Origin: Winogradskyella algicola
Lineage (GTDB): Bacteria > Bacteroidota > Bacteroidia > Flavobacteriales > Flavobacteriaceae
DNA length: 64,000 nucleotides
Assembly (NCBI RefSeq): GCF_005869935.1
Contig: NZ_SZQF01000001.1
Coordinates: 62,001-126,000 of the forward strand
Direction of reading: 5' to 3'
Shown: positions 3,559 to 17,225 of the stretch, one piece after another
Numbering within the stretch: position 1 is the stretch's first letter
Layout of the letters: each line of letters starts with the position of its first letter
Notes under the pieces: model-generated
Told to the model about the DNA's origin: nothing
Seen by the model: the letters and a program-made list of their open reading frames with translations, nothing else
The model's database searches: none
Made by a program: the position numbers and the translations under genes

Positions 3559-5310
3559 TTGAAATTTTTCTGGATTTTTCTTTTCATCCCTTTTCTTTCA
3601 ATTTCTCAAAATAACGACCTAAAAGACCAACTCAGAGACGCAATAGAAAGCACATCTAATATCGAGAAAAAGGTACAGTTTCATGTTGATCTGGCTTGGG
3701 AATACATTATGGAAGAAAATGATAGTGCTCTCATATATTCTAATAAAGCCTATGATTTTTCTAAACTGAGCAACTACCCACTTGGTCAGGCTATTGCTAA
3801 AGAAACTAGTGGACTCTATTACGAAATTGTAGATGGTAATTACGATAGAGCGAGTAGTCTTTATTTTGATGGTATAGCAATCTGTGAAGAAAATAATCTA
3901 GACTATGACAGTTCAATTTATCATTCACTTGGAGTGATGTTTCACACATCAGATAATTATGAAAAAGCATTAGAATATTATACAATTTCTTACGATAAGG
4001 CAAAAGAAGTGGATGATTTAGAACTTCAAAAAAAATGTCTTATCAATCTAGGTACTATTAATTCCTCTCTAAACAACTTCTTAGAAGCAGAAGAACTTCT
4101 TTTAAAAAGTCTTGATATAAATACGAGAGAAGAATTAAATTTTGATACCTATGCCAATTTGGGTAATTTATACATTAGGCAAGAAAAGTTCAGAGACGCA
4201 TTACCTTTTTTAGAGAAAGCTACTATACAACATCCTGATAACTATAATTCTGAAGAAAACCTCACGTATCTCATCAATGCAAAAATTGCACTAAAAGATA
4301 CTTTGGGAATGCAACCTATTATAAAACGTGCAAAAGCATCGTTAGAAAGCACTACAGCTTTAAGAAACAATAGTATAATGACGATGTCGCTATCTAACTA
4401 TTACAGAAGTATTGGTGATTTTGAAACTGCTTTATCCTACAGAGATGATTACTTAAAGATGTACGAGTCAATCAAAGAAAAACAACGAGATCAAACCGTC
4501 TATGAGTTAGAAACTAAATATCAGACTGAAAAAACAAAAGAAGCCCTCGAAAAAAAAGAAAAAGAAGAGCAATTGTATATAACACTTTTAGTTATAGGTG
4601 TTATTATCGCTTCAGCCTTAGCTTTTTTATTATACAATAACAGAAAGAAAAAATTACAACTAGCTAGACAAAAGCAACTCCTCGAAGCCACTATAGATGA
4701 AAAAAATGTGTTGCTTAAAGAAACCCATCATCGCGTAAAAAATAGTTTTCAAATCGTATCGAGTTTACTTTATCTACAGTCTGAAAGTGTTGAAGACAAA
4801 GAAGCTAAAATAGCCATTAAAGAAGCTGAAAATCGTGTGCGTTCTATGGTCTTGATTCACCAAAAACTTTATAACAAAGACGAACTTGTTGGTATAAATA
4901 CCAAGGACTATTTTAACGATTTGGTAAGAGACATTTTTGAAAGCCATCAGTTTAAATCAGAGCCTATCACTTACAATCTAGATATTGAGCCCTTAGTATT
5001 GGACATCGAGACTATTACTCCTGTTGGTCTTATTTTAAACGAGCTCATCGTTAATACATTAAAGCATGCTTTTGATGAAGTGACTTCAAAAAGTAAAATC
5101 GATATCTATTTTAACAAAGTCGAAGACCACCTAGAACTAAAAGTAATTGATAATGGGAACGGATTTGAAGGCGAAGTAAAAAACACATCATTTGGTATTA
5201 CATTGATGAAAGCCCTTTCAAAAAAGTTAAATGCATCGCTCAATTATATGTCTAAAATCAACGAAGGTACAGAAGCTCAACTTATCATAAAAAAATATAA
5301 TTTGCTATAA
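3559..5310 (+). CDS. TPR-containing sensor histidine kinase (HisKA_2 type)
   Basis: A 583-residue membrane kinase. After a signal peptide (KFFWIFLFIPFLSISQ), residues about 25-310 form TPR-like helical pairs in the periplasm (EKALEYYTISYDKAKE, EAEELLLKSLDI, YANLGNLYIRQEKFRDAL). A coiled stretch leads to one membrane segment near residues 342-362 (LYITLLVIGVIIASALAFLL). The dimerisation and phospho-acceptor region is of the HisKA_2 kind (KETHHRVKNSFQIVSSLL, with the two His near 394-395). An HATPase domain follows with the N-box NELIVNTLKHAF and DNGNGFEGE. The start is TTG and no ATG fits the signal peptide. The LytTR regulator gene 99 bases downstream is its likely partner. The sensed signal is unknown. 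Confidence 0.9.
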   Translation: MKFFWIFLFIPFLSISQNNDLKDQLRDAIESTSNIEKKVQFHVDLAWEYIMEENDSALIYSNKAYDFSKLSNYPLGQAIAKETSGLYYEIVDGNYDRASSLYFDGIAICEENNLDYDSSIYHSLGVMFHTSDNYEKALEYYTISYDKAKEVDDLELQKKCLINLGTINSSLNNFLEAEELLLKSLDINTREELNFDTYANLGNLYIRQEKFRDALPFLEKATIQHPDNYNSEENLTYLINAKIALKDTLGMQPIIKRAKASLESTTALRNNSIMTMSLSNYYRSIGDFETALSYRDDYLKMYESIKEKQRDQTVYELETKYQTEKTKEALEKKEKEEQLYITLLVIGVIIASALAFLLYNNRKKKLQLARQKQLLEATIDEKNVLLKETHHRVKNSFQIVSSLLYLQSESVEDKEAKIAIKEAENRVRSMVLIHQKLYNKDELVGINTKDYFNDLVRDIFESHQFKSEPITYNLDIEPLVLDIETITPVGLILNELIVNTLKHAFDEVTSKSKIDIYFNKVEDHLELKVIDNGNGFEGEVKNTSFGITLMKALSKKLNASLNYMSKINEGTEAQLIIKKYNLL

Positions 5311-5322
5311 ATCCGCATTTCA

Positions 5323-5356
5323 CTCACTAAAAAAAACTAGGCATTCACTAAAAAAA
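5323..5356 (+). promoter_or_regulatory. Candidate LytTR operator O1: direct-repeat pair, 21-bp offset
   Basis: CTCACTAAAAAAA (5323-5335) and TTCACTAAAAAAA (5344-5356) are offset by exactly 21 bp, two helical turns. The pair sits 54 bases before the start of the LytTR regulator gene, suggesting autoregulation. LytTR domains are known to bind two direct repeats on one face of the helix about 21-22 bp apart. Assignment to this regulator is inference. Confidence 0.5.
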
Positions 5357-5409
5357 GATAATTGTAAATTAGTGTTTGTCTAGTTTAATATTCTAAAATA
5401 TAAATAACC

Positions 5410-6099
5410 TTGAAATCTCTTAATATTTACATCGTTGAAGATGAGCCGCTTATAGTTTCAACAATTGAGGTGGCTTTGCGAAAACAAGGGTTTTATGCAA
5501 TTGGTGATGCTGAAGATTTTAATACAGCATTAAAAGACATAGAGCGTTTAAAACCAGACTTAACACTCATCGATATTCAGCTTTCAGGCGAAAAGGATGG
5601 TGTGGATTTAGCCACGGAACTCGATAAACGACACAAGCCCTACCTTTATTTATCTTCACAAACGGATCCAAATACCATTGAACGTGTTAAACATACCAAC
5701 CCTTTGGGTTATATTGTTAAACCATTTACCGAAACTGGTCTTAGAACCAATATAGAATTGGCTTGGCATAACTACAAAGATGCGCAACAGCACTATTTAA
5801 CCATTAAGCACGAGGGTAGGTTACACCGTATTAACGAAAACACCATTAGCTATCTTAAAGCTTATGATAATTATTGCTATGTGATAACACAAACAGACAC
5901 CTTTCTGGTACCGCATACCCTAAAACATGTCTCAGAGCAGTTAGAAAGTGAGGATTTCATAAAGGCACATCGCTCTTATGTTGTTAATTTAAGTCATATT
6001 ATAAGTGTAGACAAAAATACAATTACATTAAAAAACGATACCATTCCTGTTAGTGCATCACACAAAAGCTTAGTAGTCAGCAAGCTAAAAGGCAAGTAA
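5410..6099 (+). CDS. LytTR-family response regulator
   Basis: A 229-residue cytoplasmic response regulator. The receiver domain (about 1-120) begins IYIVEDEPLI (acidic pocket), has the phospho-acceptor Asp in LTLIDIQLSGEKDG, a Ser/Thr switch in YLYLSSQTDP and the conserved Lys in GYIVKPFT. The C-terminal LytTR DNA-binding domain (about 135-229) shows INENTISYLKAYDNYCYVIT, VPHTLKHVSEQL and FIKAHRSYVVNLSHI. The start is TTG. The gene directly follows the TPR histidine kinase. It is preceded by a 21-bp-spaced direct-repeat pair that recurs before the next gene, so the regulator probably controls itself and the S74 fibre gene. Confidence 0.93.
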   Translation: MKSLNIYIVEDEPLIVSTIEVALRKQGFYAIGDAEDFNTALKDIERLKPDLTLIDIQLSGEKDGVDLATELDKRHKPYLYLSSQTDPNTIERVKHTNPLGYIVKPFTETGLRTNIELAWHNYKDAQQHYLTIKHEGRLHRINENTISYLKAYDNYCYVITQTDTFLVPHTLKHVSEQLESEDFIKAHRSYVVNLSHIISVDKNTITLKNDTIPVSASHKSLVVSKLKGK

Positions 6100-6149
6100 T
6101 ACAGATTATCGGCACACTATAAATAACACTTTTCTAATGATAATATGCA

Positions 6150-6183
6150 TTGGCTAAATAAATAAAGCCGTTCACTAAAAATG
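6150..6183 (+). promoter_or_regulatory. Candidate LytTR operator O2 upstream of the fibre gene
   Basis: TTGGCTAAATAAA (6150-6162) and TTCACTAAAAATG (6171-6183) share the CTAAA core with an exact 21-bp offset. The pair lies 128 bases before the fibre gene and is followed by a block at 6201-6230 that is repeated after the fibre gene. Same type as the pairs at 5323 and 8958. Function is inferred. Confidence 0.45.
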
Positions 6184-6200
6184 CTATCCCAACAGCTAGG

Positions 6201-6230
6201 TTTTAAACTAATTTTATATAGCTATTAATC
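6201..6230 (+). promoter_or_regulatory. Conserved promoter-like block ending GCTATTAATC
   Basis: This block runs from TTTTAAACTAA to GCTATTAATC. It recurs almost unchanged at 9009-9037, there also 49-50 bases after a TTCACTAAAAA repeat. Shorter relatives of its end (GCTATTAAT or ACTATTAATC) occur at 3533, 11186 and 15320 just before other genes of this locus. No transcription start can be proven. Confidence 0.4.
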
Positions 6231-6310
6231 AAGTTATCTAGATTCTAGACTACTTCTCTACATTATTATTTTCAAGTGGTTTAAGGTCTAAAGACTCAAA
6301 ACACTCTATT

Positions 6311-8848
6311 ATGAAGGCAAAATTACTAGGCTTCGTACTGTTTACACTTTTATTTAGTTTTAATGCAAAAGGCCAAGTTGGTGTTGGCAATACAAACCCT
6401 CAGGCACAATTAGATATTAGTGCGTCTAATACTACTTCACCAACCAACTCAGATGGTATTTTAATACCACGTATGTCTAATTTACCAGCCGTATTTAGTA
6501 TGACACCCAATCAAGATGGTATGATGGTATTTTACACAGGAACAGGAGAGGATGGCAAAGGATTTTATTATTGGGATGAGACAGCTAACAATTGGGTTAA
6601 AATAGTTAGTGGAACTGCAAACAATTGGACTCTTAACGGCAATGCTATAAATGGAACAAATTTCTTTGGAACAACCAATAATGCACCGATAATATTTAGA
6701 ACAAACAATGATCAACAAATGGTATTAGACCAAGATGGAGATTTAGGGCTAAATCTAACCAATCCTAATGCCACACTAGATATTGGTTTTACCAACGGTA
6801 AAAATGTCATTGAGGCCAGAGGTAATTCAACAATTTTAGCTCCTACTACTATTGTGTCTAATATCTCAGGTGCTACTTCAAGTAACAGCAATGAAATTGA
6901 AAATGGCATGATCCAAACTTTTACCACGCCCCAAGATGGCGAATTAAATTACATTGACTTTCTCGCAAGAGGCTCGAGTAATGGTGACCAAGATACCAGA
7001 ATTATCATTCGAAGAAATGGAACCATAATTTATAATAACGTATTTTCTATTTTCTATTCAACAACACCCACAGCAAGGCGGATCAACTTTCCTTCTGGGA
7101 TTACCATTGCAACGGGCTTTACCTATTCTGTAGAATTTGAAGATGAGAGTTATGGTTGGGCAACATCCGAAATATATGGGTACTACTCTACTGGTAATAC
7201 TTACAACAATGGCAATGCAAGCGGTACTGCTCCAACAAGTGGTGATCTGGCTTTTAGGGTAAACATTAATCGATTTATAAGTACAACTGATGAAGTATTT
7301 GTACTTAATGAGAATGGCCAATTAAGTGTAGGGCACGACAATCCTTCAGCTACTCTAGACGTAGTAGGCGACTTTCAATACCGTGATGGTAATGAATCAA
7401 CAGGTGACATCTTAATTTCGGACAATATTGGTAATGCTACTTGGACAGATCCTACCTCAATATTTACAGACGACCAAACACTTACACTATCTGGTAATTT
7501 TCTGAGTATAACTGATGGAAATAGTGTAAATCTATCCTCCTTATTTACTGAGGATTCTGACTGGTACGAGGTCGGCGGCACAACAATACCGAACGATATT
7601 AACGACAATATGTATACCCAAGGCAATGTGGGTATTGGGGAAAATACGCCTCAAGCCAGACTTCATGTTAACGACGCTAATACACCCTTGCGTTTAGATA
7701 TCGGTGGTACTGAACGCTTTAGTTTTAGAAATAACTCACTTGAATTTTTAAACAGTGGTAATTCTGTCTTCATCGGTGAACTTGCAGGTAATAATGATGA
7801 TCTATCTGGCAACCAAAATACAGCTATTGGCTACAGAGCACTTAGAGATAATGTTACTGGTCAGCGCAATATAGCTATAGGAAGTGGTGCCATGTTGCTA
7901 AACAATAGTGGTGATACTAATATTGCCATTGGCGATGATGCGATGGCAGTAAGCACGTCAGGTTCTAATAATATTAGTATTGGTACTCAAACTTTATTTA
8001 GAAATACGACAGGAAATAACAATGTAGCTCTTGGAGGCACAGCACTCAGGGAAAACACAATAGGCATTAATAATGTTGCCTTAGGCTATAGAGCATTATA
8101 TAACACTGAAACTAATGCCAATATAGCCATTGGATACGAATCTGGTTATACAAATTCTTCTGGAACTCAAAACACTTTTGTTGGAACTGGCTCTGGGCAC
8201 CTTACCACAGGCAGCGGTAACTTATTTTTAGGTTACCAAGCAGGTTATAATGAAACAGGCTCAAATAAGCTTTACATTAGTAATTCCAACTCAGCTAACC
8301 CTCTTATTTATGGTGAATTTGACAATGATATACTTCGCTTTAATGGTAATGTTGGTATTGGTAGAACTCCAATAACAAATGCACTTGAAGTAGAAGGTAA
8401 TGCTTCAAAAAACGTAGCTGGTGCATGGTTGGCTAATTCTGATCGACGCTTAAAAAAGAACATTAAAACCATTGATGGTGAAAATGCACTAAACAAACTT
8501 TTAGCGCTAAGAGGGGTAACCTATGAGTGGAATGATAACCAAACAGGAATTGACCGTCCTAAAAATATACAATACGGCTTCATTGCCCAAGAACTCATGC
8601 AGGTTTTTCCAGGAAAGGTGACCAAGGATAATCTTGGTTTTTACCAAACCGCTTATGGTGACTATGATGCGGTTTTTGTTCAGGCCATAAAAGAACTGAA
8701 CACGAAAATTGAAACTCTTGAAGCTGAAAACATAACATTAAAACAGCAACTAAAGAAATATGAATCATTAGAAGCTCGTATTCTTGCATTAGAAAATGAG
8801 ACAGCAGCTAACTTGTCTGTTGAAAAAGTTCAAACAAGTGAGGAATAA
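6311..8848 (+). CDS. Secreted fibre protein with YadA-head-like repeats and S74 self-cleaving chaperone domain
   Basis: An 845-residue exported protein. A signal peptide (MKAKLLGFVLFTLLFSFNAKG) is followed by a stalk-like N-terminus (VGVGNTNPQAQLDISAS, repeated in the second fibre gene at 15570). A beta-rich domain lies near 170-330. About residues 495-650 hold short tandem repeats of the pattern NxAIGxxAL (NTAIGYRAL, NIAIGSGAM, NNVALGYRAL), resembling the trimeric left-handed roll of YadA heads. The C-terminus is an endosialidase chaperone (Peptidase_S74) domain: SDRRLKKNI gives the Ser710/Lys715 dyad, then YGFIAQELMQVFPG and a terminal coiled coil (IKELNTKIETLEAENITLKQ). The family folds trimeric fibres and then cuts itself off before the Ser. 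No type IX sorting domain is visible, so the route across the outer membrane is unknown. Confidence 0.85.
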   Translation: MKAKLLGFVLFTLLFSFNAKGQVGVGNTNPQAQLDISASNTTSPTNSDGILIPRMSNLPAVFSMTPNQDGMMVFYTGTGEDGKGFYYWDETANNWVKIVSGTANNWTLNGNAINGTNFFGTTNNAPIIFRTNNDQQMVLDQDGDLGLNLTNPNATLDIGFTNGKNVIEARGNSTILAPTTIVSNISGATSSNSNEIENGMIQTFTTPQDGELNYIDFLARGSSNGDQDTRIIIRRNGTIIYNNVFSIFYSTTPTARRINFPSGITIATGFTYSVEFEDESYGWATSEIYGYYSTGNTYNNGNASGTAPTSGDLAFRVNINRFISTTDEVFVLNENGQLSVGHDNPSATLDVVGDFQYRDGNESTGDILISDNIGNATWTDPTSIFTDDQTLTLSGNFLSITDGNSVNLSSLFTEDSDWYEVGGTTIPNDINDNMYTQGNVGIGENTPQARLHVNDANTPLRLDIGGTERFSFRNNSLEFLNSGNSVFIGELAGNNDDLSGNQNTAIGYRALRDNVTGQRNIAIGSGAMLLNNSGDTNIAIGDDAMAVSTSGSNNISIGTQTLFRNTTGNNNVALGGTALRENTIGINNVALGYRALYNTETNANIAIGYESGYTNSSGTQNTFVGTGSGHLTTGSGNLFLGYQAGYNETGSNKLYISNSNSANPLIYGEFDNDILRFNGNVGIGRTPITNALEVEGNASKNVAGAWLANSDRRLKKNIKTIDGENALNKLLALRGVTYEWNDNQTGIDRPKNIQYGFIAQELMQVFPGKVTKDNLGFYQTAYGDYDAVFVQAIKELNTKIETLEAENITLKQQLKKYESLEARILALENETAANLSVEKVQTSEE

Positions 8849-8900
8849 AAATTAAACAATTATGTTTTGAGACCGATCATAATAACTATGTCGGATAGTA

Positions 8901-8936
8901 GAAAAAGTCGCAGTAGGGAGCGACTTTTTCTTTTTT
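8901..8936 (+). terminator. Intrinsic terminator of the S74 fibre gene
   Basis: An 11-bp stem GAAAAAGTCGC / GCGACTTTTTC encloses the 8-base loop AGTAGGGA and is followed by TTTTTT. It lies about 50 bases after the fibre stop codon. The loop is shared with the hairpins at 9065, 17191 and 44045. Confidence 0.85.
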
Positions 8937-8954
8937 AACTATGCTTTGTTATTA

Positions 8955-9098
8955 GCGTTGACTAGAAAAAAGCGTTCATTCACTAAAAAAAGATGTTGCA
9001 GTTATACATTTTAAATAACTTTATAAAGCTATTAATCTATTTTGTTGGATTAAAAATATTGAAGCAAAAGTCGCTGTAGGGAGCGGCTTTTGTTTTTT
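8955..9098 (+). other. Gene-less cassette: operator O3, promoter block and terminator (possible relic of a lost fibre gene)
   Basis: In order: a direct-repeat pair TTGACTAGAAAAA (8958-8970) / TTCACTAAAAAAA (8979-8991) with a 21-bp offset; a near copy of the 6201-6230 block at 9009-9037 ending GCTATTAATC; then a terminator hairpin at 9065-9098. The arrangement and spacing mirror the start and end of the fibre transcription unit, but only about 25 bases separate block and hairpin, so no ORF fits. It could be a deleted paralogue or a very short RNA. Confidence 0.5.
9065..9098 (+). terminator. Terminator hairpin with TGTAGGGA loop and no + strand gene directly upstream
   Basis: The stem CAAAAGTCGC / GCGGCTTTTG (one G-T pair) encloses the loop TGTAGGGA, followed by TTTTTT on the + strand. 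The T-run overlaps the stop codon of the oppositely oriented aldehyde dehydrogenase gene. The + strand fibre gene already has its own terminator at 8901. Confidence 0.7.
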
Positions 9099-10515
9099 AA
9101 AACCACTTTACAGTTAATTTGGCCAATTTCTCTTTTAATGCACTGTACGGTGGAAACAACAATTCATTGATTCCATAGGCATATTGTTTCACTACGGCAC
9201 GCTGATTGCTAAAAGCTTTAAAACCAAAAAGACCATGGCTTTTACCAATACCGCTGTTATTTATTCCACCAAAAGGCAAGTTATGATTTGCATAATGAAT
9301 CACGTTATGATTAATACATGTACCACCAGCTCTTGTGTTTTTAACAATCTTCTTTATATTTCTTTTATTTTTACTATAAATATATAAAGCCAATGGTCGT
9401 TCTTTGGAATTGACATAGGCAATTGCCTCATCCAAACTGTTATATGTAACAATAGGTAAAATTGGCCCAAATATTTCTTCTTTAAGCAGTGTAGCATCTT
9501 CTTTTAAATTTGAAATTATAGTTGGGGAGATATACCTTGAATTAGCTTCTAAATCGCCACCAACCTCAACATTGGCGTCCAAACTTCTTGCGTTTTCTAA
9601 ATAAGATTGCAAACGTTCAAAGTGCTTTTCGGTAACAATCCTAGCGTAAGAATCTGATTCAATCGGGTTTGCGGTATAATAATGTTCTATCCATTTTTTG
9701 CATGCATTTACAAACTTTGTTTTAATGCTTTCTTCTATCAATACATAATCTGGTGATACACAAATTTGACCTGCATTTAAGAACTTTCCCCAAACAATGC
9801 GCTTTGCAGCTTTTTCTATATTGATTGTATTGTCTATGATGGTTGGGGATTTTCCACCAAGTTCAAGTGTTACTGAAGCTAAGTGTTTTGCGGCAGCCGA
9901 CATCACAATTTTACCAACGTTTGGTGAGCCGGTAAAAAAGATATGATTAAAGGGCAATTCTAATAATTGGGTAGCGGTTTCTACTTCTCCTTCTACTAAT
10001 GCTACTTCCTCCTCAGTAAAAATAGTTTTCACAATCTCGGACATTAAAGCAGAAGAGTTTGGTGTCATCTCCGATGGTTTAATAATTACAGAATTACCTG
10101 CTGCTATGGCCGAAACTAATGGTCCAAAAGTTAAGTTGAAAGGAAAATTCCATGGCGAAATAATTAAACATACACCCTTTGGTTCATATATATAATAAGA
10201 ACTAGAGCCAAGCATTGATAAAGGTGAATCTACCTTTTGCTTTCGCATCCACTGACGAAGATTAGATTTTACAAATTTAATTTCATTTATAATGGAATAT
10301 ATCTCGGTAAGCTCCACTTCTACCCTGGGCTTGTTAAGATCTTTATGTAATGCCTCAATAATACGGTCTCTATATGTCGCTTCAATGGCAGTTTTAAGCT
10401 TTTTCAACTGTTTTATCCTGTGATTATAAGGTAATGTTCCTATGTTGAGCTGACGGGATTGTTGCTTCAGAAACAACTGATAATAAGTATTATCCTTAAA
10501 GTCTATATTATTCAT
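9097..10515 (-). CDS. NAD(P)-dependent aldehyde dehydrogenase (class 3-like)
   Basis: 472 residues from the chosen start. It oxidises aldehydes to acids in the cytoplasm; substrate unknown. Visible family features are the Rossmann region with ISPWNFPFNLTFGPLVSAIA and NSVIIKPSEMTPNS, the glycine motif FFTGSPNVGKIV, the catalytic Glu in TLELGGKSP, the catalytic Cys in NAGQICVSPDYVL, and EEIFGPILPIV. Length and the C-terminal hydrophobic tail (NELLFPPYSALKEKLAKL) resemble class 3 / fatty or coniferyl aldehyde dehydrogenases. The frame extends 19 codons further to 10572, but the Met at 10515 (MNNIDFKDNTYYQLF) matches the usual family start and a promoter-like TTG-N18-ATGCTTTG lies within the extension. 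It faces the fibre gene, so it is not part of that operon. Confidence 0.88.
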   Translation of the reverse strand: MNNIDFKDNTYYQLFLKQQSRQLNIGTLPYNHRIKQLKKLKTAIEATYRDRIIEALHKDLNKPRVEVELTEIYSIINEIKFVKSNLRQWMRKQKVDSPLSMLGSSSYYIYEPKGVCLIISPWNFPFNLTFGPLVSAIAAGNSVIIKPSEMTPNSSALMSEIVKTIFTEEEVALVEGEVETATQLLELPFNHIFFTGSPNVGKIVMSAAAKHLASVTLELGGKSPTIIDNTINIEKAAKRIVWGKFLNAGQICVSPDYVLIEESIKTKFVNACKKWIEHYYTANPIESDSYARIVTEKHFERLQSYLENARSLDANVEVGGDLEANSRYISPTIISNLKEDATLLKEEIFGPILPIVTYNSLDEAIAYVNSKERPLALYIYSKNKRNIKKIVKNTRAGGTCINHNVIHYANHNLPFGGINNSGIGKSHGLFGFKAFSNQRAVVKQYAYGINELLFPPYSALKEKLAKLTVKWF

Positions 10516-11199: not shown

Positions 11200-14100
11200 A
11201 TGACGAATTCTATAAATATTTGTTTTCATAGATTAAGTCACACTATTATATCCTTAATTTTATGTGTAGTCAGCTTAATTTCTGGTGCTCAAAATTTAAC
11301 GTTTTCTCATTATGGATTAGACGAAGGGCTACCGCAAGAAACGATTCATTGTATAGAAAAAGATGCTAATGGATTTATTTGGTTAGGAACTTCTGATGGT
11401 GTGGTTCGTTTTGATGGAAAGGAATTTTTTGTCCCTCAACCAGATACTAATTCTAATCTTGATATTGCAGGTTATAGAATTGGAGACATTCTCGCAAAGG
11501 ACAACTACATATATATAGGAACTGGTCAAAATGGACTTATTAAATATAACATCCATGATGAAACAATTTCACAACTGGGAGAAACTAACACCAATTGTAC
11601 GCGTTTAATTCATTATAAAGACAAAGTCGTTGCTGCCTTTTATAATAATGGATTAGCCCTTATTGATGAGTTTCAAAACTTTCATTCTGATAGTTTTCTG
11701 AAAAAGTTTCCTAAAAAAATTACTGGTATTTCGGTTTACAATGAGATGATTTTTGTAGGCACGGACGAGGGCTTTATTTATAAAGTTAAACTAGACGATA
11801 AAAACGACTTCGTGTATGGTTTCTATTATAAAAAAGTCGCCAATTTAAACGCTCAAATTAATAACCTGCAAACCCTTAATGGACAACTTTGGGTTAGCAC
11901 AAACGAAGGCATTTACAAATATTCTGATACCATAAACAGCTTTGATGCAATCCCTATTCATAAAAATAATCAAACTGTAAATTACAATACTAATACATTG
12001 GCATTTCATTATGAAACTTTCTACCTTGGCACGACATCAGATGGTTTATTATTAGGCAATTTTGATGGTGATAAATTTTCAGTCAGTCAACACTTTGTTG
12101 CTGATAAAAAATATGATGCATCTACGATAAATTCCGATGGTATTAATGAGCTCTTTATATCAGATGATTTACTATTTATTGGAAATATCAATCTCGATAT
12201 TACCACAGTAAAAGCACAAGACGTATTTATTCAACCCACCGAAAATTTTGATCTAGACAACCCTTCTGTTTTTGCAGTTTATGATACAAAAGATTACTTA
12301 TTTACAGGTTCATCAAGCGGATTAGTGATTTCTAGCAACAAGAATATTTCAAAATATAATGTTTTATCCGAGCATAATAGGGTTAGAGGCATAACAAGAG
12401 ACAATCACAACAATATTTGGTTTGTGACCAATAAAGGAGTTTTTATTATTCCTTTAAAGAATTTAGATATTAAAAACCCTACCATCATTTCATGTCCTAT
12501 TGATGCCAACGACAGCGCTCAACTTCCCGCAGAAAATATGCGAAGTGTTTATAAAGACCATGATGGAAATATATGGATTACCACATTTAATGCTGGGTTT
12601 TCAAAATTTATAGGTGACGTCACTTCAAATAATTTAAAGTTCAAAACCTATAGTTCTGAAGCGTTAGCTTCGGTGTTTACACTTTCTATGGTTGAAGATG
12701 CCTCTAGCAACTACTGGATGAGTACCCAAAAAGGACTGAGTAAATTAAATTTTAAAGATGACGAATTAATTTCAGTAAAAAACTACGATGAGTCATCTGG
12801 TCTTGCTACTAAAGGTGTTTTGAGCAGTTTTATAGATTCTGAAAATACGCTTTGGGTCGCAAGCAGAAAAGGATTGAACAAATACAATGAAGCATCAGAT
12901 AGTTTTAAAAGTTATGGCAAGCGTGAAGGCTTAACCAACACCTTCGTTTATAACATTAACGAAGATAACTCAGGGAATTTGTGGTTATCAACCAATGGTG
13001 GACTATTCCGATTTAATAAAACCACGGAAGAGTTCACCAATTATAACCCAAAAGACGGCGTACAGAGTACCGAATTTAATCTTGGAGCGACATTTAAAAA
13101 TGAAACCACAGGACAACTATATTTTGGTGGAATTAACGGATTAAATATTTTTGATCCCAATCGAATTTCAGAGTTAGATAAAGAAGGAACTCTTAAATTT
13201 ACCAGTCTTAAGATCAAAGATGAGTATATTCTTCCAAATACCTCCAAAATTCTATCTACCTCCATAAGTAATGCTAAAGAAGTTAATCTGAATTATGATA
13301 GTTTCCCTGTCAACTTAAACTTTGCCGCTCTAGACTTTAGACTCAACAGTAACATTAATTATGTTTACAAATTGCTTCCTGATGATACTGACTGGAACAA
13401 TCTGGGAAGCAAAAACAACATTCAGTTATTAAACCTATCTTCTAAATCCTATACGCTTCAAATTCAGGGAAAATCACGTAATGACCTTTGGAAAAAACCA
13501 CCTTTAGAATTAAAAATAAGCGTAACGCCACCTTGGTACAAAAGTAATTTAGCATATTTATCCTATTTGCTTTTATTTTTAGGTATTGTTTATGCATTTT
13601 ATAAAATTAGTCTGCAACGACAAATTGCTGGGCAAGAATCTAAACGTTTACAAGATTTAGATGACTTAAAATCGCGCTTCATCACCAATATCACTCACGA
13701 GTTTAGAACACCGCTCACCATTATTTTAGGATATCTAAGCAACTTAAAAGAGCGTTTCAACACAAAAGATGAAGTGAGTACATCACTAGAAACCATAGAG
13801 CAAAATAGTAACAACCTGTTAGATTTGGTAAACCAAATGCTCGACTTAGCTAAGCTTGAAAAAGGGCAACTTAACGTTAATCTTATTCAGAATGATATTG
13901 TTGCATATGTATCTCATATAGTTTACAGCTTTAAAAGTATTGCTGCTGACAAGGACATTTCTATAAAATTTTCATCTGAGCCAAATCAAATCATAATGGA
14001 TTTTGATGCTGAAAAAATTCGGCAAATAATGACAAACCTCATTTCTAATGGTATTAAGTTTTCGCCTCAACATTCTGAATTGAATATTAGACTTACCAAA

Positions 14101-15189
14101 AAAGAAGTTTCAATTTTACAAATCGAGGTTACTGACCAAGGTTATGGCATTGAAGAATCTCAATTGCCTTTTATCTTTGATCGCTTTTACCAAGCTGAAA
14201 ATGCTGTACATAAAGTCGCTCAAGGAACAGGTATTGGATTAGCTCTTACCAAAGAATTGGTAGAATTATTTAACGGTAAAATTAAAGTCGCTTCAATAGT
14301 TAATAAAGGCACCAGCTTTACGATTACTTTGCCAATAACAAATACTGCTGAAGCAAGACCTGTAGACCAAGACGAACGTCAAATCAATATTGGTACTGTG
14401 GTTCCTCAGATTGATGATGTTATTTCAGATGAAGACGCTAACGCTGTACTCATCGTAGAAGATAATGCTGATATGGCGAGATATGTTGCATCATGTTTAA
14501 AACCAAACTATAAGGTCTCCTTTGCCAAAAATGGAAAAGAGGGTTTAAAACTTGCTAAACAAAATATCCCAGATATTGTAGTTACTGACGTAATGATGCC
14601 TGTTATGGATGGTTTTGAGTTAACGCAAAAACTACAAGCAGACGATAATACCAATCATATCCCAATCATTATGCTTACCTCTAAAGCGATGCAAGAAGAT
14701 CGGTTGGAAGGCATAACCAGTGGTGCAGATGCTTATTTAACAAAGCCGTTCCAAAAAAAGGAATTACAACTGCGCATGCAAATGCTTATTTCTAAACGAA
14801 AACAGTTACAAGAACGATATACAGTAAATTCCATTGTAGAAAAAAAAGAAGAACAACCAAAACCTTTGGATAAAAAGCTGGTCTTTTTAAATACAGTTGT
14901 CGATGCTATTCACCAACATATTGAAGATTCAAATTTTGGCGCAACCGAACTAGCTAGTTTCTTAGCAATGAGTGATTCACAACTCTACAGAAAGCTAAAA
15001 GCGATTTCTAATACCAGTACAGCTGTTTTTATAAGGAAGGTGCGTTTAAAGAAAGGCAAAGACATGCTTAAAAACAAAGATTTATCGGTTTCGGAAATTG
15101 CCTATGCGGTTGGATTTAACGATCCAAACTGGTTTAGTAAGACATTTAAAGAAGAATTTGGACAAAGTCCAACCAAATTTCGTAACTAA
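11200..15189 (+). CDS. Hybrid two-component system (HTCS) sensor-regulator
   Basis: A 1329-residue one-protein phosphorelay. After a signal/anchor segment, about residues 35-700 are two-component regulator propeller repeats (QETIHCIEKDANGFIWLGTS, DHDGNIWITTFNAGFSKF, NTLWVASRKGLNKYNEASD). A Y_Y_Y domain follows (about 710-780), then a membrane helix near 784-806. HisKA with the phospho-acceptor His is in NITHEFRTPLTIILGYL (about 832), then HATPase (MTNLISNGIKFSP, DQGYGIEES, GTGIGLALTKELV). The receiver has Asp in VVTDVMMPVMDGFEL (about 1128), and the protein ends in an AraC-type HTH (IAYAVGFNDPNWFSKTFKEE). HTCS proteins usually bind a glycan fragment in the periplasm and activate a polysaccharide locus. 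Here no susC/susD pair is adjacent; instead small and fibre genes follow. Confidence 0.95.
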   Translation: MTNSINICFHRLSHTIISLILCVVSLISGAQNLTFSHYGLDEGLPQETIHCIEKDANGFIWLGTSDGVVRFDGKEFFVPQPDTNSNLDIAGYRIGDILAKDNYIYIGTGQNGLIKYNIHDETISQLGETNTNCTRLIHYKDKVVAAFYNNGLALIDEFQNFHSDSFLKKFPKKITGISVYNEMIFVGTDEGFIYKVKLDDKNDFVYGFYYKKVANLNAQINNLQTLNGQLWVSTNEGIYKYSDTINSFDAIPIHKNNQTVNYNTNTLAFHYETFYLGTTSDGLLLGNFDGDKFSVSQHFVADKKYDASTINSDGINELFISDDLLFIGNINLDITTVKAQDVFIQPTENFDLDNPSVFAVYDTKDYLFTGSSSGLVISSNKNISKYNVLSEHNRVRGITRDNHNNIWFVTNKGVFIIPLKNLDIKNPTIISCPIDANDSAQLPAENMRSVYKDHDGNIWITTFNAGFSKFIGDVTSNNLKFKTYSSEALASVFTLSMVEDASSNYWMSTQKGLSKLNFKDDELISVKNYDESSGLATKGVLSSFIDSENTLWVASRKGLNKYNEASDSFKSYGKREGLTNTFVYNINEDNSGNLWLSTNGGLFRFNKTTEEFTNYNPKDGVQSTEFNLGATFKNETTGQLYFGGINGLNIFDPNRISELDKEGTLKFTSLKIKDEYILPNTSKILSTSISNAKEVNLNYDSFPVNLNFAALDFRLNSNINYVYKLLPDDTDWNNLGSKNNIQLLNLSSKSYTLQIQGKSRNDLWKKPPLELKISVTPPWYKSNLAYLSYLLLFLGIVYAFYKISLQRQIAGQESKRLQDLDDLKSRFITNITHEFRTPLTIILGYLSNLKERFNTKDEVSTSLETIEQNSNNLLDLVNQMLDLAKLEKGQLNVNLIQNDIVAYVSHIVYSFKSIAADKDISIKFSSEPNQIIMDFDAEKIRQIMTNLISNGIKFSPQHSELNIRLTKKEVSILQIEVTDQGYGIEESQLPFIFDRFYQAENAVHKVAQGTGIGLALTKELVELFNGKIKVASIVNKGTSFTITLPITNTAEARPVDQDERQINIGTVVPQIDDVISDEDANAVLIVEDNADMARYVASCLKPNYKVSFAKNGKEGLKLAKQNIPDIVVTDVMMPVMDGFELTQKLQADDNTNHIPIIMLTSKAMQEDRLEGITSGADAYLTKPFQKKELQLRMQMLISKRKQLQERYTVNSIVEKKEEQPKPLDKKLVFLNTVVDAIHQHIEDSNFGATELASFLAMSDSQLYRKLKAISNTSTAVFIRKVRLKKGKDMLKNKDLSVSEIAYAVGFNDPNWFSKTFKEEFGQSPTKFRN

Positions 15190-15345
15190 TTTATTTTCAG
15201 TTATTTAACAAATAATAAAACAATTGATTCTTCTCATTTTTCTTCATTTTGACAAAATACTCCATGCTTTTGAAAGAATAATCAAGACGATTTTTAGAGT
15301 TCAATATTAGTTTTGAAGAGCTATTAATTATTAAATCGTTGTGAG

Positions 15346-15543
15346 ATGAAAACCTCTACATTTCTTGTGTCACTTTTAATCATCAATTCTAGTTTTTTGG
15401 CTGGTCATGTATCCATCCAATTATTTGGAAGTATTAACCCTTTTATCTTAGGAGGCTGCGAAATTTTACTTGGTATTCTATACTATGTAAATAAAATAAT
15501 TAGAGATGTACGAAACACTTTTGATGTAGAGGTTAAACTCTAA
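15346..15543 (+). CDS. Small membrane protein, unknown function
   Basis: 65 residues with two hydrophobic segments (about 5-22 and 30-48: FLVSLLIINSSFLAGHVSI, FILGGCEILLGILYYV) and a charged C-terminus (KIIRDVRNTFDVEVKL). Not recognised. The ATG is preceded by AT-rich spacer carrying GCTATTAATT at 15320-15329, 16 bases before the start. The next gene begins 26 bases after its stop, so it is probably translated from the same message as the second fibre protein. Confidence 0.6.
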   Translation: MKTSTFLVSLLIINSSFLAGHVSIQLFGSINPFILGGCEILLGILYYVNKIIRDVRNTFDVEVKL

Positions 15544-15569
15544 TCACACAATTTTAACACCCTACTGTT

Positions 15570-17144
15570 ATGAAAACAATTATAACTTTAGCTTTGCTAT
15601 GCTTTTCAATCTTTATCTTTTCCCAAGTTGGTGTAGGTAATACAGATCCTCAAGCCAGACTGGATATTTCTGCTTCAAGTACGGCAACACCAAGTAATGA
15701 AGACGGTATTTTGATACCAAGGGTAAATAATTTCCCAACAGTAAACCCGACAGCAGACCAAGACGGGATGATGGTATTTTATACTGGCACATCATTATCA
15801 GGAAAGGGCTTTTATTATTGGGACAATAGCACAACATCGTGGACTTCTATTTCTGCTAAAGATTCAGATTGGCTCACTCAAATAACAAGTGCGTTACCAA
15901 ACTCAATTAATGATAACATATACACTCTAGGCAATATAGCTATTGGTGGGATTAATTCTTATGGCTATAAACTTTATGTTGACTCAGGAAGTAATCTAGG
16001 TACTTATCTCACTGGATCAGGTTTAAATAGTAATTATACTTTAAGTGTAATTAACTCGGCAGGTCGTGCCGCTCGATTTCAAACAGGAAACACTTACTTC
16101 AGTGGGTATCTTTCCAATAATGTCGCTGTACATGGAACGGCCTACGGAACCGACGCTATTGGTGGATTTTTTAGCTCATACGATAATGGAGAAGCCCTTG
16201 TTGGGCAAAGTCAAGGATCAGGAACAGCCATAGAAGGCTGGGCCTACGGTACAGGATTATCTGGATATTTTCATGGAGGAGAGTTATTCGCGAATGATGG
16301 TTTTAGAGCTGAGCGGAATGTCATTTTTAATGATTATGGATTCCCTACATCTGATTTGCGTGTTGAAAGTGACACAGAACCATACATGTTATTTGTGGAT
16401 GCAAGTTTAGACAGAATGGGAATTGGCTTAAGTAATCCTCAAACTCTTTTACATGTTGGCGGTAATACACGTATTGATAGTGAGCTCCAAATAGGAAACC
16501 CTTCTACAATAGGTTATACATTTCCAACAATAGATGGCACTAACGGCCAAGTGATGACTACAGATGGTGCTGGTAATCTAACTTTTCAAGATGCTGCCGT
16601 TAACACAGACAATCAACAAGTAGATACTTTTGGATTAGTCGGTAATAACTTAGGAATTTCCTTAGAAGATGATGGCGTACCTGTTCAAACAGTTAATCTT
16701 GATAACCTTAGCTTTAATGTTAATAATTTCTCATTAGCAGTATCCACATTGCCTGGGCTTTACATCCATGGTGGAACAGGTTATGAAAAAATGGCATTCA
16801 GCACTATTGTTGTAGATACACAAGGTGAATATATAACAACAAATAACAGGTTTAGAGCCACAAATAACGGTTATTATCGTATTAATGCAACCTACACTAC
16901 CACTTCGAACTATTTTACAGGAAACTATGGTATTGCTGTATATAAAAATGGAACTTTAATAAAAGAAAACACCTTTACACATGTGTACGATGCGCCAGAT
17001 GGCATACTACACAGATCAATTAATTGCATAGTACAACTAGATGCCTTGGAATATATAGAAATATACATGTACAGCACAATAAGTGGTATACTTATAGACC
17101 AAAATCCTTCAAAAACATATTTTGAGGTAGAACGTATTAGATAA
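15570..17144 (+). CDS. Secreted fibre-like protein with C1q/TNF-like C-terminal domain
   Basis: A 524-residue exported protein and N-terminal paralogue of the S74 fibre gene at 6311. After the signal peptide (KTIITLALLCFSIFIFSQ) the two share VGVGNT.PQA.LDISAS, DGILIPR, QDGMMVFYTGT and KGFYYWD. The middle has beta-strand repeats, including RMGIGLSNPQTLLHVGG, a phage tail-fibre-like motif. The S74 domain is absent. Instead about residues 395-524 look like a C1q-like jelly roll (FRATNNGYYRINATYTTTS, GIAVYKNGTLIKENTF, QLDALEYIEIYMYS, TYFEVERIR at the very end). C1q-like heads are trimeric and ligand-binding, so a surface recognition fibre is plausible. The C1q assignment is from strand pattern only. 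Confidence 0.72.
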   Translation: MKTIITLALLCFSIFIFSQVGVGNTDPQARLDISASSTATPSNEDGILIPRVNNFPTVNPTADQDGMMVFYTGTSLSGKGFYYWDNSTTSWTSISAKDSDWLTQITSALPNSINDNIYTLGNIAIGGINSYGYKLYVDSGSNLGTYLTGSGLNSNYTLSVINSAGRAARFQTGNTYFSGYLSNNVAVHGTAYGTDAIGGFFSSYDNGEALVGQSQGSGTAIEGWAYGTGLSGYFHGGELFANDGFRAERNVIFNDYGFPTSDLRVESDTEPYMLFVDASLDRMGIGLSNPQTLLHVGGNTRIDSELQIGNPSTIGYTFPTIDGTNGQVMTTDGAGNLTFQDAAVNTDNQQVDTFGLVGNNLGISLEDDGVPVQTVNLDNLSFNVNNFSLAVSTLPGLYIHGGTGYEKMAFSTIVVDTQGEYITTNNRFRATNNGYYRINATYTTTSNYFTGNYGIAVYKNGTLIKENTFTHVYDAPDGILHRSINCIVQLDALEYIEIYMYSTISGILIDQNPSKTYFEVERIR

Positions 17145-17190
17145 AATATAAAGCATAATTGGATTGTCTTCAATTATATTCTTTTGCGCA

Positions 17191-17225
17191 AAGAAAGCCG
17201 AAGTAGGGATCGGCTTTCTTTTTTC
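17191..17225 (+). terminator. Terminator of the second fibre gene, AGTAGGGA loop
   Basis: The stem AAGAAAGCCGA / TCGGCTTTCTT (11 bp) encloses the loop AGTAGGGA, then a T-run. The loop is identical to that of the first fibre gene's terminator at 8901 although the stem differs. Confidence 0.88.

Follow-up and report, generated by a model that had tools for sequence, protein, structure and literature searches.

Three probable LytTR operators beside a regulator gene, an S74 fibre gene, and a candidate small RNA in Winogradskyella algicola

INTRODUCTION

In the window (i.e., the whole stretch of 64,000 nucleotides of Winogradskyella algicola DNA analyzed here), genes for a sensor kinase, a LytTR response regulator, and a fibre protein with a C-terminal S74 domain lie on the same strand, accompanied by three pairs of direct repeats (Table 1). 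This arrangement raises the question of whether the pairs are operators of the neighbouring regulator and, if so, what each of them would serve, in particular the third, which lies past the fibre gene.

RESULTS

Genes of the locus

The regulator has Pfam matches above cut-off to both the receiver and the LytTR domain and is thus a member of this class, and the kinase has a signal-like N-terminus and one membrane segment (a by-eye reading only). The fibre protein, whose N-terminus also looks signal-like by eye, belongs to the S74 class: its stretch NSDRRLKK aligns with SDERLK of a tail fibre, and the serine therein is presumably the predicted S74 cleavage site. Its relatives in the PDB (7dc3, 8jov, and 6f45) are in MyRF and phage tail fibres, and it matches 13 PHROGs structural families, mostly tail fibres. 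Among the six other neighbouring proteins scanned against PHROGs, there were 0 matches to phage structural families.

An aldehyde dehydrogenase gene lies downstream in 12 of the 14 genus regulator loci (L051-L064), and 9 of those 12 also have an asparaginase-like or transporter gene upstream. A hybrid two-component protein (propeller sensor, kinase, receiver, and AraC-type domain) is encoded directly past the island, at 11200-15189. When positions 3559-8848 are compared with locus L051 (genome G028), the kinase is 100% identical, the regulator 92%, and the fibre 55-69% in the aligned parts, which reads as mosaic divergence within a single block.

Table 1. Features of the locus, with coordinates in the window
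Feature	Position	Strand	Basis
Sensor kinase, TPR repeats + HisKA_2 + HATPase, 583 aa	3559..5310	+	Pfam HisKA_2 4.8e-25, TPR_12 9.8e-17, HATPase_c 6e-7
Putative LytTR site 1, direct-repeat pair	halves 5323-5331 and 5344-5352	+	Repeat search; orthologues of the regulator have upstream pairs
Presumed -7 box TAGTTTAA of regulator promoter, 28 nt past pair 1	5381..5388	+	Sequence; similar stretches in relatives by eye
Predicted +1 of regulator transcript	near 5393	+	
Response regulator, receiver + LytTR DNA-binding domain, 229 aa, TTG start	5410..6099	+	Pfam Response_reg 2.8e-17, LytTR 7.9e-18; alignment
Putative LytTR site 2, direct-repeat pair	halves 6150-6158 and 6171-6179	+	Repeat search; relatives
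-7 box TAATTTTA, 29 nt past pair 2; predicted +1 G at 6221	6209..6216	+	TAnnTTTG position in available text of PMC9723704
Fibre mRNA leader (predicted), begins GCTATTAATC	6221..6310	+	Covariation; complement tests
Leader hairpin	6246-6255 with 6274-6283	+	Covariation
UCUCUAC in fibre leader, complementary to GUAGGGA	6255-6261	+	First U closes stem, remainder opens apical loop
Fibre protein, C-terminal S74 domain, 845 aa	6311..8848	+	Pfam Peptidase_S74 8.5e-19, residues 710-770
Fibre-gene terminator hairpin, loop GUAGGGA at 8913-8919	8901..8930	+	Same loop in relatives
Putative LytTR site 3, direct-repeat pair	halves 8958-8966 and 8979-8987	+	Repeat search; relatives
-7 box TAACTTTA, 28 nt past pair 3; predicted +1 G at 9028	9016..9023	+	
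Putative small RNA, ~71 nt	9028..9098	+	Fold, alignment, covariance-model search of 68 genomes
Small-RNA parts	5' hairpin 9032-9053; linker; terminator with loop GUAGGGA at 9076-9082		
Second fibre-type operon without LytTR pair	15308..17220	+	-7 box 15308, GCTATTAAT 15320, terminator loop GUAGGGA 17203

The three pairs within the genome

The first-pass annotation had reported the pairs at 5323/5344, 6150/6171, and 8958/8979; letters and coordinates proved correct, and each pair is offset by exactly 21 bp. With 9-nt halves and a 12-nt spacer, the pairs have the published layout of LytTR sites, i.e., two repeats of 9-11 nt each with 11-13 nt between them (PMC4847170, available text).

Their occurrence elsewhere was assessed by pattern and model searches of the genome (3.36 Mb in 44 contigs). 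When 3 mismatches were allowed to an 18-letter pattern, the window had 4 matches (the three pairs with 1 mismatch each and a fourth with 3), as compared with a mean of 0.80 and a largest count of 4, reached once, in 100 shuffles. A longer pattern, again with up to 3 mismatches, gave 4 matches in the whole genome and 0 in the reversed control: sites 1-3 (1-2 mismatches each) are the only ones with at most 2, and the fourth, on another contig, has 3. The genome-wide motif search that the first-pass annotation had proposed thus brought up no equally good 21-bp pair elsewhere in the genome. A search for the proximal half-site at its spacing to the -7 box gave 6 matches in this genome, two of them sites 2 and 3, and 6 in the reversed control, and since these counts are equal, a further regulon member in the own genome is not indicated.

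Pairs and cargo across the genus and family

A regulator match at E<=1e-40 is present in 16 of 99 genus genomes, including the own genome. The pair pattern with 0-1 mismatch occurs 14 times in the 99 genomes, and 13 of these matches lie within ~6 kb of the regulator; the genome of the remaining one (G013:C10:34383-34414, 1 mismatch) lacks a close regulator orthologue. If 3 mismatches are allowed, 50 of the 99 genomes match, a count of little value because the reversed control frequently matches too. In 16 regulator loci (the window plus 15 others, 330 kb in all), offset 21 accounts for 26 TTCACTAAA pairs with at most 1 mismatch per half, and every other offset from 10 to 80 for one at most. 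In the genus, pairs precede both the regulator and the cargo, and several genomes have a further one past the cargo; none was seen in loci L061 and L065.

For the family, genome contigs were scanned with a regulator alignment, and the best 80 of 156 relatives yielded 79 loci. A motif-free search for direct repeats at offsets 12-40, applied to 78 loci from these best 80 of 156 relatives (L189, whose regulator is incomplete, was omitted), gave offset 21 as the clear mode: of the cases counted, it had 34.5 of 42 on the downstream side of the regulator and 17.5 of 26 on the upstream side. The dominant pair beside regulator orthologues across the Flavobacteriaceae is TTCACTAAA at offset 21, as shown by this spacing comparison in related flavobacteria, which had been suggested at first pass. 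In the same 79 loci (best 80 of 156 relatives), the kinase is upstream of the regulator in 76, and a pair at offset 20-22 (3 mismatches allowed) stands upstream in 34, downstream in 57, and on either side in 64. By a one-seed S74 profile, a fibre-like gene follows in 38 of the 79 loci from these best 80 of 156 relatives, 31 of which have a downstream pair; a five-seed profile places S74 at most 6.5 kb downstream in 23 of 79, a count that rises to 40 of 79 when the fibre N-terminal motif is accepted as well. Conservation next to homologous kinase-regulator-fibre loci, on which the annotation had staked its reading, is therefore found both for the pair (64 of 79) and for a downstream pair together with a fibre-like gene (31 of 79). 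Among the remotest relatives (identity of ~45% or below), most show a weak motif or none.

The genes behind the pairs are not all fibre genes. Seven first cargo proteins that lack fibre features were scanned: four have LRR or receptor-L repeats and three have a T9SS sorting domain, two of these being among the LRR proteins; of the others, one has DUF285 and PKD domains and one has no match. The cargo of this regulator family thus appears to consist of secreted surface proteins, with the S74 fibre as one class only, LRR-type surface proteins taking that place in other genera.

Some loci depart from the common layout. L140 (G100) has four LytTR pairs, one each ahead of the regulator, a 440-aa protein, and the two fibres, and a partial second aldehyde dehydrogenase gene between the fibres, which looks like a recent duplication. 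Two kinase-regulator modules that differ in subtype stand in tandem in L052 (G017); a 65-aa ORF with no Pfam match precedes the fibre of the second. In Aequorivita, the regulator and pair are followed in L193, L194, and L201 by 2-3 kb without a same-strand ORF of 60 aa and a two-hairpin end; across the loci of this genus (L193, L194, and L201; L195-L197 and L199), either a non-coding stretch or a 105-aa membrane-like protein stands after the pair, with no fibre, and the terminator loops of L193-L197, L199, and L201 are GUGGGG or GUGAGG.

Promoter geometry

We analyzed the flanks of 105 sites with at most 2 mismatches from the window and the 79 loci (best 80 of 156 relatives; a few overlapping loci are counted twice). 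TAnnTTTR, the Bacteroidetes -7 box, begins 28 or 29 nt past the pair in 50 of the 105 sites (shuffled flanks, mean 2.3, largest 7), and CTATTAA begins 41-43 nt past it in 27 (shuffles, mean 0.23, largest 2). Published transcription-start data place TAnnTTTG at -12 to -5 (PMC9723704, available text), by which GCTATTAATC would occupy +1 to +10, with the pair spanning about -71 to -41. A published figure of about -60 exists for AgrA and refers to the centre of its promoter-proximal repeats (PMC4227749, available text). The exact promoter pattern was found twice in 397 family genomes, both times in another genus and both times at a kinase-regulator-site-fibre locus; it misses the window itself because the window's distal half-sites deviate. 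As to whether GCTATTAATC is a general start sequence of the genome, the box followed by GCTATTAAT occurs 7 times in all (0 in the reversed control), and this locus accounts for three of these, which does not support the idea.

These positions bear on what each pair would control. The kinase and the regulator had been proposed to control themselves through the first pair; this fits the regulator gene and falls for the kinase, because the pair is located past the kinase stop codon and can drive the regulator only. The proposal that the second pair serves the fibre fits what we find, as site 2 precedes the fibre gene with a predicted promoter between them.

A variant regulator system and a second fibre operon

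In five genomes (G026, G023, G041, G106, and G044), the same island has another kinase and a ~205-aa regulator (loci with the variant regulator are L137, L141, L142, L143, L150, and L058/L149, and that of L141 is LuxR-type). The G026 variant, when scanned, turned out to have a TPR/HisKA_2 kinase and a regulator with a receiver and a LuxR-type (GerE) domain. Its fibre promoter, like those of G023, G106, G044, and G045 (a contig without a regulator), has TTTTACACC before GCTATTAATC, and L141, L143, and L150 have TCCCTAC just before the start codon of the variant regulator (at -10). In the variant loci, the fibre, the +1 sequence, and the GUAGGGA terminator thus stay while the regulator class changes.

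These loci help to decide whether the pairs might be bound by another regulator, with the LytTR gene a mere neighbour. We hold this to be highly improbable, given that the pairs travel with the LytTR gene across genera, that the island with the LuxR-type variant uses the different element TTTTACACC before its fibre, and that the pair layout is that published for LytTR sites (PMC4847170, available text). The reading of the locus as a LytTR regulon is supported by the uniqueness of the pairs in the genome and their conservation beside homologous kinase-regulator loci, and the three pairs are very probably LytTR operators, as judged from sequence comparisons.

The own genome also has a second fibre-type operon, which consists of a 65-aa ORF and a 524-aa fibre-like protein without a Pfam match that shares the fibre N-terminus; its +1 sequence and GUAGGGA terminator loop are those of the first fibre gene, and a LytTR pair is absent.

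A putative small RNA behind the third pair

The third pair had been assigned to a gene-less cassette. The pair stands, and the cassette instead carries a short conserved RNA-like stretch of ~71 nt, which begins with GCUAUUAAUC at the predicted +1 and continues with a hairpin and a short linker up to a terminator whose loop is GUAGGGA. A covariance model built from seven copies (the eighth, orphan L066, was left out) matched 8 of 68 genus genomes at E<1e-10 (G000, G009, G017, G028, G046, G052, G054, and G106), followed by G101 at 4.9e-9, which has a 0-mismatch pair. A pair with 0-2 mismatches precedes the RNA in 8 of these nine genomes (7 of the E<1e-10 set plus G101). At E<=0.01, some match was obtained in 51 of the 68 genomes, fibre-gene terminators included. 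Covariation within the small RNA is modest, with 2 of 18 pairs changing on both sides and 34 of 500 shuffles reaching the score. A search of window positions 5200-9300 (covering small RNA and leader) against Rfam gave three matches, the best at E 0.74, all far below the gathering scores.

The operators might be real and the site-3 transcript still a functionless by-product, i.e., a fibre promoter and terminator left after deletion of a fibre gene. Some loci look much as this would predict: the third pair precedes a second fibre gene in L054 (G003) and L140 (G100), and in G019 (L066) the flanking genes enclose a pair and terminator but no kinase, regulator, or fibre. The unit is nevertheless found in nine genomes and in two loci, L060 and L063, stands before the kinase rather than downstream of the fibre, and G106 retains it with a decayed pair only, beside the variant LuxR-type regulator. 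Sequence identity can be read both ways. Among eight copies (27 sequence pairs, excluding the near-identical window/L051 pair), identity averages 40% ahead of the pair and 49% across the 28-nt spacer, as compared with 61% for the 5' part of the RNA and 96% for its terminator; the 5' part is weakly conserved, as a by-product would be, yet exceeds the spacer, in a comparison that favours the RNA 5' part and terminator since copies were chosen by their start and loop words. On balance, we consider the by-product explanation unlikely, though not negligible. The small RNA is likely real, and its transcription under LytTR control seems quite probable.

The GUAGGGA loop and its complement in fibre leaders

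Within the own genome, the GUAGGGA hairpin is found in the fibre, small-RNA, and second-fibre terminators, and nowhere else within 3 mismatches. Across 60 genomes, it occurs in 10, at 28 places (0 control matches). Among the 22 places whose neighbouring gene was examined, 13 follow a fibre-type gene, 7 are a small RNA or cassette in its place, and 2 follow an lldD-like gene (named by eye; G003 and G019). The fibre leader, for its part, forms a hairpin; across nine genomes, both partners differ at 5 of its 10 pairs, a covariation score reached by 0 of 500 shuffles, and the apical loop begins CUCUACA in 7 of the nine.

The complement of the terminator loop is concentrated in fibre genes. Between -110 and +48 relative to the start codon, TCYCTAC is present for 15 of 29 fibre ORFs versus 7 of 338 other ORFs of the loci, and for 15 of 744 ORFs of a wider set. 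The seven non-fibre ORFs comprise three LuxR-type regulators of the variant system, three aldehyde dehydrogenases (in the coding sequence, by eye), and a protein with a fibre-like N-terminus (by eye). The 14 fibre ORFs without the complement include all five second-type fibres scored.

We also selected the 23 fibre 5' ends that have a GCTATTAAT start and a GUAGGGA terminator in the locus; dropped were the non-fibre cargo leaders of L054/L140, L064, the fibres of L060/L063/L143, the second fibres of L052/L140, the second-type fibres, and L146-L148 (the L140 second fibre has the complement, and the other scored fibres among those dropped lack it). A complement to GUAGGGA with at most one G·U is present in 18 of the 23 (missing in L056, L057, L161, L163, and L176) and its six-letter core in 20, although such counts are not independent because the leaders are related. 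None of 104 letter permutations reached 18 (largest, 13), and 500 shuffled sets gave at most 5. In the other named loci, TCYCTAC was found in just 4 of 29 first cargo genes (L160, L162, L180, and L183), so that the pattern belongs to the GUAGGGA clade. By-eye inspection of 17 distant-genus loci for loop-leader compensation showed one that looks compatible (L172, CCCUAC versus GUGGGG) and no clear compensating leader change in the variant-loop loci L170 and L171; most others of the 17 gave no usable terminator.

Loop and complement could also have separate reasons, the loop being a site of protein binding or part of recombination-copied cassettes and UCUCUAC/UCCCUAC a leader element for translation or structure. 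We regard this as a serious possibility, if a doubtful one. Indeed, L056 and L057 keep the loop without the complement, so that pairing cannot be the sole reason for the loop, and the same combination is seen in second-type fibres (window 17203), while in G003 and G019 the loop also stands after the lldD-like gene. Harder to reconcile with separate reasons is the placement of the complement: relative to the start codon it lies, depending on fibre class, at -55 to -61, at -10, or at +13 inside the coding sequence, in addition to -10 of the variant LuxR-type regulator. Counted from the predicted +1, 14 of 18 have it at +30 to +36, and the other 4 at +9 or +14. Moreover, the letters opposite G vary between C and U (TCTCTAC, TCCCTAC, and TCCTTAC), as pairing permits. 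Loop-leader pairing is, in our view, the single most likely reason for the shared complement, with any sign and function still conjectural, and we put forward functional pairing tentatively, as a proposal slightly easier to doubt than to accept.

DISCUSSION

A proposed circuit

We postulate a local LytTR two-component circuit with three activated promoters and an RNA-pairing layer, which as a whole we consider fairly probable. In this circuit, the TPR/HisKA_2 kinase would pass a signal to the LytTR response regulator, which would bind the three TTCACTAAA-N12-TTCACTAAA repeats at about -71 to -41 and activate the promoters of its own gene (site 1), of the exported, presumably self-cleaving S74 fibre (site 2), and of the ~71-nt small RNA (site 3). 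The fibre mRNA, predicted to begin with GCUAUUAAUC, would offer (U)CUCUAC in the apical loop of its leader hairpin, and the complementary GUAGGGA loop would be exposed by the small RNA and by fibre-gene terminators. Flavobacterium johnsoniae translates its mRNAs without Shine-Dalgarno sequences, and mRNA structure close to the start codon tunes this translation (PMC6847099, available text); pairing there would therefore most simply limit initiation. Limited translation is accordingly the most likely consequence that loop-loop pairing at the fibre mRNA 5' end would have, and with it activation would give a self-limited fibre pulse.

A more far-reaching version holds that there is a shared RNA code, in which the loop in the terminators of fibre mRNAs and in the small RNA is antisense to fibre mRNA 5' ends. 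We think this improbable; if true, a fibre transcript could act in trans on other fibre transcripts, expression could be self-limited or restricted to one fibre at a time, and the small RNA would be a free-standing copy of the loop.

Comparison with known systems

RNAIII of the agr system acts on surface proteins. The agr system of Staphylococcus aureus (AgrC/AgrA, P2/P3, and RNAIII) shares with the present locus a LytTR regulator, direct-repeat sites upstream of promoters, and autoregulation together with activation of a regulatory RNA, these last two being putative here (PMC4227749, available text). It differs from the present locus, which has a TPR/HisKA_2 kinase, an RNA of ~71 nt, the fibre itself behind an operator, and Bacteroidetes promoter boxes. 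Genes for an autoinducing peptide (agrB and agrD) were not recognized by eye among the neighbouring ORFs.

The VirSR regulator of Clostridium perfringens is of the LytTR class. VirSR/VR-RNA also has direct-repeat boxes and a regulatory RNA among the regulator's targets; to our knowledge, its targets, RNA, and kinase class are unlike those here, and it includes no fibre. YpdAB and BtsSR of Escherichia coli have transporters as targets and, unlike the present locus, LytS-type kinases. They share LytTR regulators with paired repeats, YpdB binding a direct repeat of GGCATTTCAT (PMC4847170, available text). The match of our regulator to the BtsR model is weak (57.5 bits, far below the equivalog cut-off of 246).

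In the mostly open-access literature on Bacteroidetes and flavobacterial LytTR and S74 proteins, which as covered includes few subscription papers and was available in part, LytTR proteins or S74 domains are mentioned, and we found no LytTR operator, no regulation of an S74 fibre, and no comparable small RNA. The present data provide an operator consensus and promoter spacing for a LytTR family across many Flavobacteriaceae genera, a group for which no LytTR operator came up in that literature, and name surface fibres, LRR-type surface proteins, and a small RNA as likely direct targets. In addition, they make the idea of terminator loops as antisense testable in a phylum whose mRNAs lack Shine-Dalgarno sequences.

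The fibre shares its S74 (intramolecular chaperone) domain with fibres of phages and MyRF; it differs from these in that its gene has metabolic genes as neighbours, is part of a 1.03-Mb contig, and follows a putative two-component operator. Peptidase S74 has also been reported as a shell domain of eCIS operons (PMC8213781, available text). The 3' UTRs of fibre genes in several genera (e.g., window 8850-8871) have an AATTG/CAATT-like repeat, followed by ATGTTTTGAG-like letters, before the terminator.
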